Assembly (NCBI RefSeq): GCF_002356355.1
Contig: NZ_AP018052.1
Span: 2,170,001-2,234,000, forward strand
Length of the DNA: 64,000 bases
Source: Thiohalobacter thiocyanaticus
GTDB taxonomy: Bacteria > Pseudomonadota > Gammaproteobacteria > Thiohalobacterales > Thiohalobacteraceae
Reading direction: 5' to 3'
The notes under the pieces: generated by a model
What the model was told of the DNA's origin: nothing
The model's database searches: none
The model's input: only the letters and a program-made list of their open reading frames with translations
Made by a program: the position numbers and the translations under genes
Shown: in pieces, positions 54,545 through 58,524 of the stretch
Layout of the letters: each line of letters starts with the position of its first letter
How positions within the stretch are numbered: position 1 is the stretch's first letter

Positions 54545-54632
54545 TCCCGTCATTGCGAGCGAAGCGCGGCAATCTCGTAACACACCTGAAAACAGTTGAG
54601 GATTGCCGCGGCGCTCCGCGCCTCGCAATGAC
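54545..54632. repeat. REP-like palindrome, family 1b (CGTCATTGCGAG)
   Basis: Left CGTCATTGCGAGCGAAGCGC with GGCAATCTCG, right GATTGCCGCGGCGCTCCGCG with CTCGCAATGACG. These arms resemble those that enclose the GIY-YIG gene at 57390-57794, so this may be a gene-less derivative of that unit. Confidence 0.85.
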
Positions 54633-54653
54633 GATTAAACCAGAGGCTTATTT

Positions 54654-55397
54654 ATGTTACTGCGTCGCCTGTTCCTGGCCACCCTTGCCCTGCTGATGAG
54701 CGCCGCTGTGCCGGCCGCTGACCAGTACGACGTGGAAATCATCGTCTACGCCAGCCTGGACCCGGACACCGGCGAGGAATACTGGCCGGCGCTGCAATCC
54801 GGCCCCGACCTCGCCTCGGCCTGGTACTTCGACCACACCCCGGCACTGCAGCCGCTGCCGCGCAAGGCCTACCGGCTCGATGCCATCACCGGCGCCCTGG
54901 CGCGTTCCAGACAGTATCGTCCCCTGCTCCACTTCGCCTGGCGCCAGCCGGGCTGGGAGCGTAATGCCGCCCTGCCCGTGCGCATCAACATCCCCCTCGG
55001 CAGCGCCCTGCCGGTGTACCCGGAAAGCCACCCTCTGCGCGCACCCGGCACCGTCACAGCGCCTTCCGGCCTGGCATCCGAATCCGCCTTCAGGGGAGAA
55101 ATGCAGCTGCTGGAAGGCACCCTCATGGTCTACCGCTCACGCTACCTGCACCTGGTAGCGGACCTGGTCTATCAGGAACGCCTGGGTCCGTCAGCGGACA
55201 GCAGTCCGTACGGTGAGGACGGCGGCATCGTCTACCAACCCATCCGCCTGCAGCAGTCACGCCGCATGCGCAGCAACGAACTGCACTACCTGGACCATCC
55301 GCGGTTGGGGGTGATCGCACGGATCACGCCGGTTGAGGCAACAGAAGCATCAGAAGACAAAACCGAAGAAACTCCGGACTCCTCCCCTACAGAGTAA
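54654..55397 (+). CDS. csiV: CsiV-family exported protein
   Basis: A 247-residue periplasmic protein with signal peptide MLLRRLFLATLALLMSAAVP. YDVEIIVYASLDPDTGEEYW is the CsiV start and GTLMVYRSRYLHLVADLVYQ its core motif; RMRSNELHYLDHPRLGVIAR is conserved. In Vibrio, CsiV binds peptidoglycan and is needed for LdcV/CadC-independent D-amino-acid responses; here only the family is certain. Position directly after mfd is usual. The C-terminus is acidic. Confidence 0.85.
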   Translation: MLLRRLFLATLALLMSAAVPAADQYDVEIIVYASLDPDTGEEYWPALQSGPDLASAWYFDHTPALQPLPRKAYRLDAITGALARSRQYRPLLHFAWRQPGWERNAALPVRINIPLGSALPVYPESHPLRAPGTVTAPSGLASESAFRGEMQLLEGTLMVYRSRYLHLVADLVYQERLGPSADSSPYGEDGGIVYQPIRLQQSRRMRSNELHYLDHPRLGVIARITPVEATEASEDKTEETPDSSPTE

Positions 55398-55502
55398 TGT
55401 CCGCAGCCGACCAGGAGCGGATATTCTGCCAAAAAAAACGGCTCCCGAGGGTCTAGGCGTTACACAAAGGTGTTGCTCGTCTAAGCGGTTTTTGATTTAA
55501 TC

Positions 55503-55539
55503 CCCCTATAATCTAAATGGGTTATAGGGGCTTTCTTTT
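55503..55539 (+). terminator. intrinsic terminator-like hairpin
   Basis: A perfect 9-bp stem (CCCCTATAA / TTATAGGGG, 10-base loop) is followed by CTTTCTTTT on the plus strand. It could end transcription entering from csiV, shielding the toxin-antitoxin pair; on the minus strand it follows yafO by about 90 bases. Confidence 0.6.
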
Positions 55540-55621
55540 GGGGAAGAAATCTTCCGGCGTGCGCGAATTTCGGGCCCCATCTTTGGGAAACCCACCCGAT
55601 TGAAGAGGTGTCGCAGGAGAT

Positions 55622-56017
55622 TTAGAATTCCGCGCGAAATTTCGCAGCCATAGTAGCGAGATTACGCATGATGGTGTTATCGCGCGCCTGGTGATGCGCG
55701 TCCGGCCTCAGGATCGCCATCAATAAAAAACAATTAAGGTCAAAGAATCCCTGACAGTAGACCAAGTGATGATCGCTGGTGCGATTGTACTGCGGTTGTT
55801 GCTTGGTCCATTGTCGAGTTTCTTCCGCCAGATGCAAATGCATAATTTGCTCGCTGCGAACGGAAGGCAGAGTGTGCGGATGATCGTATGGGATATCCCG
55901 ACCAAAATAACTCGCAGGGATACCCGTTTCCTTGTACTGCTTGAAATCAGCTACAAGTTGATTCAATTCAGACTGACTGAGTTGCCTCTGAAGCAGCCGA
56001 CTCTTGAAAACCCGCAT
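55622..56017 (-). CDS. yafO: type II toxin, YafO family
   Basis: Ribosome-associated mRNA endonuclease toxin. The 131 residues align well by eye with E. coli YafO: MRVFKSRLLQRQLSQSELNQ at the start, PASYFGRDIPYD, HLVYCQGFFD and LRPDAHHQARDNTIM toward the end. The ATG at 56017 overlaps the antitoxin stop as TGATG and matches the MRVFK family start; a GTG one codon earlier is also possible. Unlike E. coli, there is no dinB upstream. Confidence 0.92.
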   Translation of the reverse strand: MRVFKSRLLQRQLSQSELNQLVADFKQYKETGIPASYFGRDIPYDHPHTLPSVRSEQIMHLHLAEETRQWTKQQPQYNRTSDHHLVYCQGFFDLNCFLLMAILRPDAHHQARDNTIMRNLATMAAKFRAEF

Positions 56018-56316
56018 CACTCAGAGAAGGAGCCTAAATCTTCTTCACTGGCTTGTTCCAGTAGTTTTTCCCCTTGTTCCGCGATTTCTCTCAACCGCGC
56101 AGCAGTTGGCCGGAAACGCCCCTCGAATGAATCGAATTGCTGACTTTGCTGTAAGACACTCAGCAGTGTTTCATAGACCTCGGCGCCGAGAATATAACCT
56201 GCCGTGCGATTGTTGGATAACACGGCAATTGCATGATCAGTGAAGTACGCCTGAGGTCTTTTGCGAAACTCGGTGATTGACACCGTCTCATCAGCAAGAA
56301 TCTTTTGTACGCTCAT
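56017..56316 (-). CDS. yafN: type II antitoxin, YafN (Phd/YefM-like) family
   Basis: A 99-residue antitoxin that would neutralise YafO and repress the operon. SVQKILADETVSITEFRKRP is the DNA-binding N-terminus, IAVLSNNRTAGYILGAEVYE the Phd/YefM core and FEGRFRPTAARLREIAEQGE the toxin-binding helix. The ATG at 56316 is preceded by GAGAGAGG; an upstream in-frame extension (MYYTMYTSTYSIL) reads through the promoter. Confidence 0.9.
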   Translation of the reverse strand: MSVQKILADETVSITEFRKRPQAYFTDHAIAVLSNNRTAGYILGAEVYETLLSVLQQSQQFDSFEGRFRPTAARLREIAEQGEKLLEQASEEDLGSFSE

Positions 56317-56351
56317 TGCCTCTCTCGCATACAGAATAGAATACGTAGATG

Positions 56352-56369
56352 TGTACATAGTATAGTACA
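56352..56369 (-). promoter_or_regulatory. candidate yafNO operator
   Basis: TGTAC-ATAGTATA-GTACA, a 5-bp inverted repeat with an AT spacer containing -10-like TATACT on the minus strand, about 36 bases upstream of yafN. This is the usual place for Phd/YefM autorepression. Confidence 0.4.
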
Positions 56370-56552
56370 TTTCTAAGTATATAACGTCAAGACTCCTACT
56401 AAGTTTTAACGAATAGTTCGATTGATTTAATAATCAATAAGTTATAACTATGTAAACGGAGATTTCCGGGAATCTAGATTGCATTGCGAGCAACACCTTT
56501 GTGTAACGCCTAGCCCGAGGGAGCCGCTTTTAAGAATACTACTGCTAAATAC

Positions 56553-57119
56553 TTATGCAGCTTTCTTGCGCCTAGCCACACCAAAAAACCCAAGCAAACC
56601 TGAGAAAAATAGCCAGACTGTTGCTGGAAGCGGTATTGATGAAACCGACAAGCCAGCTCCCCCGTCAATAGGAGACGGTATAGTACGAACTCCTCCTATG
56701 TTTCCTGTTATTAAAAAACTAGAAAACGAACCTCTTTTCCATTCAAACCACTTCGGGTATGCAAAAGATTCATAATCTGTTAATTCATATTTAACTTCAT
56801 CGCCATAATCCCCAAAATCAATATTAGAAGTATTATACAATTCCAAAGCGCCATCAGATAATGCTATATCGTAACTAATATCTGAAGACGCATCATAGGC
56901 AATACCGCCAATTCCACTAAAGCTTAAACCCGTAGCTTCATTATTCCAACCTATAACAAAATTATAGGCATCGGAAACAGTTGCATGGATATCCATGTAT
57001 GAACCATCAATATAGATGTATGTGGCTTCTATACGTATCGCACTTGCTGACGCAATTAGTGGAAAACAAAATACTACACAGCAGCACGCAAAAACTCTCG
57101 GATAAAAAAAACCCATCAT
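56553..57119 (-). CDS. PEP-CTERM (VPLPA-type) exported protein
   Basis: A 188-residue secreted protein of unknown function. A signal peptide (VFACCCVVFCFPLIASASA) leads a beta-rich, Tyr/Asp/Ser-rich domain, and the C-terminus is a complete sorting signal: IPLPATVWLFFSGLLGFFG followed by VARRKKAA. Exosortase would cut it and place it at the surface or in a polymer matrix; no exosortase gene is in this window. The gene is strongly AT-rich compared with its surroundings, which suggests transfer. GAGGA precedes two adjacent ATGs. Confidence 0.85.
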   Translation of the reverse strand: MMGFFYPRVFACCCVVFCFPLIASASAIRIEATYIYIDGSYMDIHATVSDAYNFVIGWNNEATGLSFSGIGGIAYDASSDISYDIALSDGALELYNTSNIDFGDYGDEVKYELTDYESFAYPKWFEWKRGSFSSFLITGNIGGVRTIPSPIDGGAGLSVSSIPLPATVWLFFSGLLGFFGVARRKKAA

Positions 57120-57426
57120 AAATCCTCATGTCGACCCCCTGTTATTAAAGGGTTTACAGGGGTGCATCTTCATATTCTCAGCAAGTCACATACCAGAAAA
57201 CCATATCAATATTTTGTCACACAGTAAAAGCAGTAAAAGGGGTCGATGACAAATGAGAACGATTGCGGTTTGTCACCGACCCCTTTAATCACTTTAATCA
57301 CCGACCCCTTTAATCCCCCTTTAATCCCGACAGACAGCCAACCCGCCGAGTGATGGTCCGTTACCGACCAGAAGCGGTCTCTGATTACCCGTCATTGCGA
57401 GGAGCGAAGCGACGTGGCAATCTCCT
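57120..57426. repeat. gene-free stretch with GACCCC-type hairpins
   Basis: No gene in 307 bases. CCCCTGT/ACAGGGG forms a stem at 57136-57162. A 16-17-bp inverted pair with one mismatch (AGGGGTCGATGACAAA at about 57238; TTTGTCACCGACCCCTT at 57269) follows, then two direct copies of AATCACCGACCCCTTTAAT-like sequence (to 57316). The left arm of the GIY-YIG unit begins at 57390. Confidence 0.75.
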
Positions 57427-57794
57427 TCAGCCACAAATTTCCTCGAAAAGATCCCGCCATACCGGGTTTCCATCCTCTATCAACGCAACCTTCGCTTTTC
57501 TCGGCCTGCCCTTCAGCTGCTTCTCTCTTTCAATGGCCAGGTCCATTGTTTCAAAAAGCTCAAACCAGATCAGTCGCGTTACATTGTATTTTGCAGTAAA
57601 TCCTCTGACTGTCTTGCTTCTATGTTGCCAGATCCGTTTTGGAAGATTGCTGGTGACACCAATATATAATGTGCCATGCGGCCGGTTGCACAGGATATAC
57701 ACAGCGGGCTTTTTTCCATTTCGTCATCCTTAACGATGATGATTTAGCTGTATCTTTGGGAGATTGCCACGTCGCTTTGCTCCTCGCAATGACG
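57390..57794. mobile_element. REP-like unit enclosing a GIY-YIG gene
   Basis: Inverted arms of 36 bases with one mismatch (57390-57425 and 57759-57794; CGTCATTGCGAGGAGCGAAG, then CGACGTGGCAATCTCC) enclose a single nuclease gene. The gene's stop codon lies 1-2 bases inside the left arm. The arms are close relatives of the palindrome at 54545-54632 and share CGTCATT with the family 1 repeats. Confidence 0.65.
57427..57702 (-). CDS. small GIY-YIG nuclease-domain protein
   Basis: A 91-residue stand-alone GIY-YIG domain (UvrC/YhbQ type). VYILCNRPHGTLYIGVTSNL has the YIL and YIG tyrosines, KRIWQHRSKTVRGFTAKYNV the catalytic Arg region, and AIEREKQLKGRPRKAKVALI the conserved Glu. In this frame no ATG precedes it, only the GTG at 57702. 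An ATG at 57719 (MEKS in its own frame) would read MEKKPAVYILC if the following six-A run (57710-57715) were one base longer, so the native start may need slippage, or the copy may be frameshifted. Confidence 0.8.
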   Translation of the reverse strand: MYILCNRPHGTLYIGVTSNLPKRIWQHRSKTVRGFTAKYNVTRLIWFELFETMDLAIEREKQLKGRPRKAKVALIEDGNPVWRDLFEEICG

Positions 57795-57896
57795 TGGTAT
57801 CTTCAAAGTCCGCTAAGTGCCGACAGCGGAACTTCTGATACTCAGATTCAGCGAAAGGCAGGACTGTGAGCGAAGGTTATGGCAATATGGTTTTGA
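57703..57896. other. gap between GIY-YIG unit and brnA
   Basis: Contains the upstream ATG and A-run of the GIY-YIG gene, the right arm of its unit (57759-57794) and about 100 bases without recognisable features. Confidence 0.5.
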
Positions 57897-58145
57897 TTAC
57901 ACAGCGCGCTTCAATTCTTCCCGTATTATTTTACGCAAGATGCTTTCAAGTTCCTTATCGTGCGCCTGTATATATTCCCTCAAGGCATTGTTAATCAGCG
58001 TCTGATAATTTCCACCACCACTTGCATGCACCCGGTTCTTGAAATGTTCGACAATATCCGTATCGAGCCGTATTGTGATCCGAACCTTGTTTGGATCGGA
58101 TTTGACGACCGGTCCGCGCTTCGCTTTGGAAAAATCTTCAGCCAT
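57897..58145 (-). CDS. brnA: type II antitoxin, BrnA family
   Basis: An 82-residue ribbon-helix-helix antitoxin. KVRITIRLDTDIVEHFKNRV and GGGNYQTLINNALREYIQAH form the DNA-binding motif; the charged C-terminal helix (LRKIIREELKRAV) would contact the toxin. The ATG at 58145 overlaps brnT by 8 bases; the open frame upstream is a shadow of brnT. Confidence 0.9.
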   Translation of the reverse strand: MAEDFSKAKRGPVVKSDPNKVRITIRLDTDIVEHFKNRVHASGGGNYQTLINNALREYIQAHDKELESILRKIIREELKRAV

Positions 58146-58422
58146 GGTGATCGAGACCTTGATAGTACTGTCTGATTTCACGTCTGGTTGCACGCCGGGC
58201 AGATATGATGCGTATGCGATTATTCCCACGCTCGGCATGCACCACATATAGGACTTTCAGGTACGGCCCCATTCCCAGGGTCTTGAACCTCAGTTCGCCG
58301 CTATCCCGATCCTCAATCGTCAGCGCATTCTCATCTTCGAGCGCAACCACTGCATCGGCGAAATCGACGCCATGCTTGCTGAGGTTATGGGCAGCCTTCC
58401 GTGGATCCCACTCATAGTCCAT
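58138..58422 (-). CDS. brnT: type II toxin, BrnT family
   Basis: A 94-residue RelE-fold ribonuclease toxin. MDYEWDPRKAAHNLSKHGVD is the BrnT start, FADAVVALEDENALTIEDRD follows, and RIRIISARRATRREIRQYY has the C-terminal catalytic Arg and Tyr. The toxin precedes the antitoxin, the normal BrnTA order. A TATGCAC/GTGTACATA-like imperfect repeat just upstream (58431-58453) is a candidate operator. Confidence 0.92.
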   Translation of the reverse strand: MDYEWDPRKAAHNLSKHGVDFADAVVALEDENALTIEDRDSGELRFKTLGMGPYLKVLYVVHAERGNNRIRIISARRATRREIRQYYQGLDHHG

Positions 58423-58524
58423 GATTTAATCGTATGCACAAATAGTGTACATATCAAGCCGGATTATCCGCTTATATATCAGTGAGATAAGGATTATTGA
58501 GTTTGTGATACGCCAATTCCACCC

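Follow-up and report, generated by a model that had tools for sequence, protein, structure and literature searches.

A yafN-yafO toxin-antitoxin pair as the only cargo of a probable non-autonomous transposon in a predicted terminator between csiV and a PEP-CTERM-type gene of Thiohalobacter thiocyanaticus

In a 64,000-nucleotide stretch of the Thiohalobacter thiocyanaticus genome (NZ_AP018052.1, positions 2,170,001 to 2,234,000; hereafter the window, with all coordinates counted from its first base), a yafN-yafO toxin-antitoxin pair lies between long inverted repeats, which raises the question of whether the pair reached this place as a mobile element and, if so, as an element of what kind. From the features collected in Table 1 and the comparisons described below, we consider it likely that the locus is a 1,061-bp non-autonomous transposon (mobile insertion cassette, MIC) with yafN-yafO as its sole cargo, inserted in trans into the terminator of csiV and a PEP-CTERM-type gene.

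Table 1. Features of the yafN-yafO element and of its flanks, in window coordinates
Feature	Position	Strand	Evidence or remark
csiV, left flank, convergent on the terminator	54654..55397	+	PF10972, E 5.4e-36
Left half of the split bidirectional terminator: A8 tract, CGGCTCCCGAGGG	55431..55451		
Left copy of the putative target-site duplication, CCCGAGGG, 8 bp	55444..55451	+	Direct repeat
Left terminal inverted repeat, CTAGGCGTTACACAAAGGTGTTGCTCG, 27 bp	55453..55479	+	Perfect match to right end
Intrinsic-terminator-like hairpin (55503-55530) with CTTTCTTTT tail	55503..55539	+	Fold z -4.5
yafO toxin gene, 132 aa	55622..56020	-	PF13957, E 1.8e-35; NCBIfam equivalog NF007377 above cut-off
yafN antitoxin gene, 99 aa, ATG at 56316	56017..56316	-	NF007300 above cut-off
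Promoter-like site together with the overlapping palindrome TGTAC-N8-GTACA	56352..56390	-	
Promoter-like site TTGACG-17-TACTAT	56390-56362	-	Upstream of yafN
Right terminal inverted repeat, identical to left	56487..56513	-	Perfect match
Right copy of the putative target-site duplication, CCCGAGGG, 8 bp	56514..56521	+	Direct repeat
Right half of the split terminator: CCCGAGGGAGCCG then CTTTT	56514..56531		
PEP-CTERM-type protein gene, right flank, convergent on the terminator	56553..57119	-	PF07589 just under cut-off; VPLPA-CTERM/PepA matches weak

Family matches between the 27-bp ends were confined to yafN and yafO, which are both intact and overlap by 4 bp, and neither the profile searches nor the open reading frames revealed a transposase gene there. 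An earlier, sequence-only reading had described a yafN-yafO pair enclosed by inverted repeats without a transposase, and this proved correct. The pair resembles known YafNO systems in that both proteins passed NCBIfam equivalog cut-offs and are encoded in an overlapping operon, and it is predicted to function as a toxin-antitoxin system. The same reading had placed a promoter and a terminator hairpin inside the repeats. A promoter-like site was indeed present upstream of yafN, but a promoter scan found such sites to be no commoner than chance in this region; the palindrome that overlaps the site is a possible autoregulatory operator. The hairpin at 55503-55530 likewise exists as a fold, but its T-rich tail is on the plus strand, facing read-through from csiV and antisense to yafNO, and because this orientation is opposite to that of the operon the hairpin is not the operon's own terminator. 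It may instead now end csiV transcripts.

The inverted repeats were identical at 27 of 27 bp, as had been noticed from the letters, and dinucleotide shuffles of the window contained no match to the 27-bp repeat at up to three mismatches. The element bounded by these ends, and including them, spans 55453-56513 and has a GC content of 46% as against 65% for the window; low GC is common to the whole interval 55400-58400, and the element is not singled out by it. Immediately outside the ends we found the direct repeat CCCGAGGG, which adjoins both of them (one base away on the left); with the next base included (T at the left end, A at the right), it becomes a 9-bp duplication with a single change, CCCGAGGGT on the left versus CCCGAGGGA on the right.

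Rejoining the flanks with one copy of CCCGAGGG restored the sequence AAAAAAAACGGCTCCCGAGGGAGCCGCTTTT, a hairpin of the form A8-CGGCTCCCGAGGGAGCCG-CTTTT with U-tracts on both strands, positioned between the stop codons of the convergent csiV (+) and PEP-CTERM-type (-) genes. In the left half, the A8 tract supplies the U-tract of the PEP-CTERM transcript on the minus strand, and the rejoined hairpin has a perfect GC stem of 7-8 bp, with a 4-nt loop under the 8-bp reading, and a predicted fold of -23.1 kcal/mol (z -4.4; z -4.5 for the other strand). Its start would fall approximately 25 nt past the stop codon of the PEP-CTERM gene. Strong hairpins with T tails were seen 14-51 nt past the stop of several other members of this PEP-CTERM gene family, and the same inspection found no terminator after this PEP-CTERM gene in the occupied state. 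When every pair of window positions with this spacing was examined, 19 of 61,000 had 8-bp direct repeats in the abutting position (with one base of slack on each side) and 150 of 61,000 gave an 8-bp hairpin across the join. The two counts are linked, since the terminator is a palindrome: its halves are inverted repeats, and the direct repeat and the join hairpin are not fully separate signals. An inserted element is thus supported by its perfect ends, by the abutting 8-bp repeats, and by a terminator that is whole only without the element.

The most probable course of events is that a DDE-type transposase supplied in trans moved the element into the loop-proximal part of an intrinsic terminator common to csiV and the PEP-CTERM-type gene. 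The insertion would have duplicated CCCGAGGG, as 8 bp or as 9 bp with one later change, and would have split the terminator hairpin into the two outer "arms" that flank the element at present.

A true empty site, meaning the target without the element, was found in neither of two congeners, both of which are without the target sequence itself, and the intact terminator sequence was found in none of 20 relatives. The nearest congener (L060; CsiV 89% identical) matches the window to 55420 and then again from 57365, so that the interval 55421-57364, with the PEP-CTERM gene, the terminator, and the element, is missing as a whole. In the second congener (L059) this interval does contain a PEP-CTERM gene, similar in the C-terminal signal only; the surrounding sequence is unrelated and holds other genes.

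Around this variable interval we also recorded several observations of a separate nature. The motif CGACCAGAAGCGG occurs at both of its borders (55403-55421 and 57346-57377) and, in both congeners, at the position that corresponds, including the junction in the nearest congener. Recombination between short direct repeats, leading to a deletion or an insertion, would agree with this arrangement, and the motif may be what allows the PEP-CTERM gene region to be lost or gained. A small gene for a GIY-YIG nuclease (57427-57702, minus strand; PF01541, E 2e-14; locus 57390-57800) is bracketed by inverted copies of the palindromic repeat CCGTCATTGCGAGGAGCGAAGCGACGTGGCAATCTCC, related copies of which are found at 54546-54633. 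A second toxin-antitoxin pair, BrnT/BrnA (57897-58422; PF04365, E 1.5e-26, and PF14384, E 8.8e-13), lies about 1.4 kb from the yafNO element, and the interval 57823-58521 around it is mostly absent from the closest congener.

If the element had a family, copies of its ends would be the clearest trace of it. Within its own genome, which is complete in one contig, just these two copies were present at up to three mismatches in 20, and by blastn the two arms matched each other and nothing else. The 27-bp ends were found in none of 94 relatives, in none of the other 368 genomes of the class (369 with its own; up to three mismatches in 27), in none of 84,980 species genomes (exact 20-mer), and in no plasmid, phage, or E. 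coli genome searched. Six matches in viral contigs were all without a mate, and no pairs occurred there; the 398 genomes of the phylum gave one match with three mismatches, and a reversed control pattern also gave one hit there, which is the chance level. This match (23/27, in G609) lies inside an AraC-like coding frame and has no mate. A match to 19 of 20 bases of the core in Idiomarina (L053), inside a helicase-like coding frame and likewise without a mate, was also rejected as chance-like.

YafO proteins of this kind were present in 4 of the 368 other class genomes and at 22 species-genome loci, at no more than 56% identity for the nearest, and none of the relatives' loci tested had these ends, the inverted repeats around them being short; in both respects the pair described here differs from the YafNO systems examined. 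In one of the other genomes (L020), two almost identical copies of a RelE/ParE-like gene (481-768 and 2396-2680) stand on either side of yafNO, with a partial ISL3-type transposase nearby; yafNO may have come there by insertion into a second toxin-antitoxin locus or by duplication along with it. In the searched collections no family is visible, either for the ends or for their combination with yafNO.

The search for a parent transposase in this genome covered the DDE_Tnp_1, IS1595, and ISL3 families. Neither the DDE_Tnp_1 profile (IS4/IS5-type) nor the IS1595 family had a match, and transposase loci in the congeners had nothing like the arms. A parent element may reside in genomes outside the sampled collections, or its ends may have diverged beyond the reach of these searches. 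The lone ISL3-family match was rejected as a transposase, being a 400-aa host protein with counterparts in both congeners. This protein (L073, 1474-2676) has an N-terminal part that we take, from reading its sequence by eye, to be desaturase-like, and one stretch that matches an ISL3 transposase domain (47 bits); together with the counterparts in both congeners, this suggests a fused transposase remnant.

These searches bear directly on how far the idea of a self-contained mobile cassette moved in trans, proposed by the sequence-only reading, can be carried. As a description of a transposase-less inserted element it holds, but mobility beyond this single insertion is not supported, and by the yardstick of that reading itself the wider claim fails: the arms occur nowhere else in the genome or in any collection searched, they were never found in pairs around different cargo, and no transposase with the same ends was found. 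Because the ends were found nowhere else, the locus is probably a non-autonomous transposon of a familiar sort, present as a single case. It is rather unlikely that we instead see the first member of a transposon type not yet described, one that has ends matching no known family, targets terminator hairpins, carries a toxin-antitoxin pair as its sole cargo, and is self-maintained by addiction and not by frequent transposition. A literature search on terminator targeting returned nothing useful, and another found, among the papers searched, none that joins YafO, inverted repeats, and a transposase.

The extent of the element can also be read differently. The arms had originally been taken as about 40 bases long, and on this basis the locus would be a larger element whose ~40-bp terminal inverted repeats include the CGGCTCCC part, contain two adjacent mismatches and one indel, and whose target duplication was lost or never existed. 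The outer parts do match each other in inverted orientation, at 11 of 13 positions with one 1-base gap, yet the mismatch falls on just the two bases that create the 8-bp repeat CCCGAGGG adjoining the perfect 27 bp, rejoining of the outer parts yields a terminator that is well placed between convergent genes with U-tracts on both strands, and there is no direct repeat outside the 40-bp arms (AAAAAAAC versus GCTTTTAA). We therefore regard a larger element as improbable. The repeat and the join hairpin, taken together with their placement, favour a split terminator over 40-bp ends, and while the inner 27 bp of the supposed arms stand, the outer ~13 bases (CGGCTCCC..) are better read as target DNA, made up of the halves of the terminator palindrome and the direct repeat.

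A shorter element is conceivable as well. A CTAG target with a 4-bp duplication is known in some IS5-type elements, and CTAG is present at both ends of this one, where, being its own reverse complement, it can be read as a direct repeat; the ends would then be 23 bp long and start with GCGTTACAC, and before the insertion the terminator would have read CGGCTCCC-GA-GGG-TCTAG-CCC-GA-GGGAGCCG. This reconstruction requires an internal GA/GA mismatch, whereas the 8-bp duplication yields a perfect stem with a 4-nt loop, and the lack of a DDE_Tnp_1 match in this genome also weighs against it, so that we consider a CTAG target quite improbable.

Two explanations without a transposon fare worse still. 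The letters GGCGTTA/TAACGCC resemble those seen in attC boxes, a likeness that serves as a lead only, and they could point to an integron-type or other site-specific recombination cassette with the ends as recombination sites. The sites are inverted and not direct, however, and directly adjoin a direct repeat of target DNA, and the arms fold no better than chance: the ACAC-AAAG-GTGT core, which had been thought able to fold into a small hairpin in each arm, forms only 4 bp, and the folds were not better than those of shuffles (z -1.4 and -0.05). Such a cassette is very unlikely. The single-copy ends and the absence of a mobile relative from the searched collections would suit an ordinary yafNO locus flanked by inverted repeats of host function, such as protein-binding sites, with no mobile history, but this leaves the perfect 27-bp identity at a distance of 1 kb, the abutting repeat, and the split terminator unexplained, and similar repeats flank the pair in none of the YafO relatives that were checked, which makes it equally hard to credit.

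If the locus is indeed a transposon moved in trans, its ends offer a lead to the enzyme. They start with CT and contain ..TTA..CACAA, and in this they are like the ends of IS50/Tn5-type elements (IS4 family), a likeness that is only a lead. A 9-bp duplication would fit the IS50/Tn5 type; the point of difference is again that this genome has no DDE_Tnp_1 match.

Among described non-autonomous elements, MICs carry gene cargo, and the classical ones share their ends with a known autonomous element. The element described here is similar to MICs in being non-autonomous, with transposon-type inverted ends and no transposase inside, and differs from them in that no autonomous element with these ends was found and in that its cargo is a complete toxin-antitoxin pair alone. 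MICs have been named as trans-mobilised non-autonomous elements (PMC4133298), and the TIMEs and mosaic Tn3-derived elements of the same source are likewise non-autonomous and bounded by inverted repeats; their Tn3-type repeats are conserved and 38 bp long, and their duplications, in AT-rich DNA, measure 5-6 bp (PMC4133298). The element here shares with TIMEs the inverted repeats and the lack of autonomy, but its repeats of 27 bp and its GC-rich duplication of 8-9 bp are not those of a Tn3-derived TIME. A Tn3-family transposon captured in that study also carries a toxin-antitoxin system (PMC4133298).

With a single copy and no parent element known, the locus serves as an illustration and does not establish a new class. 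If our interpretation is true, one clean insertion would show a non-autonomous transposon whose whole cargo is a toxin-antitoxin pair, and the choice of target, a terminator shared by two convergent genes, would have let the insertion spare both neighbouring genes. As such, it is relevant to the way in which toxin-antitoxin pairs pass from one chromosome to another.
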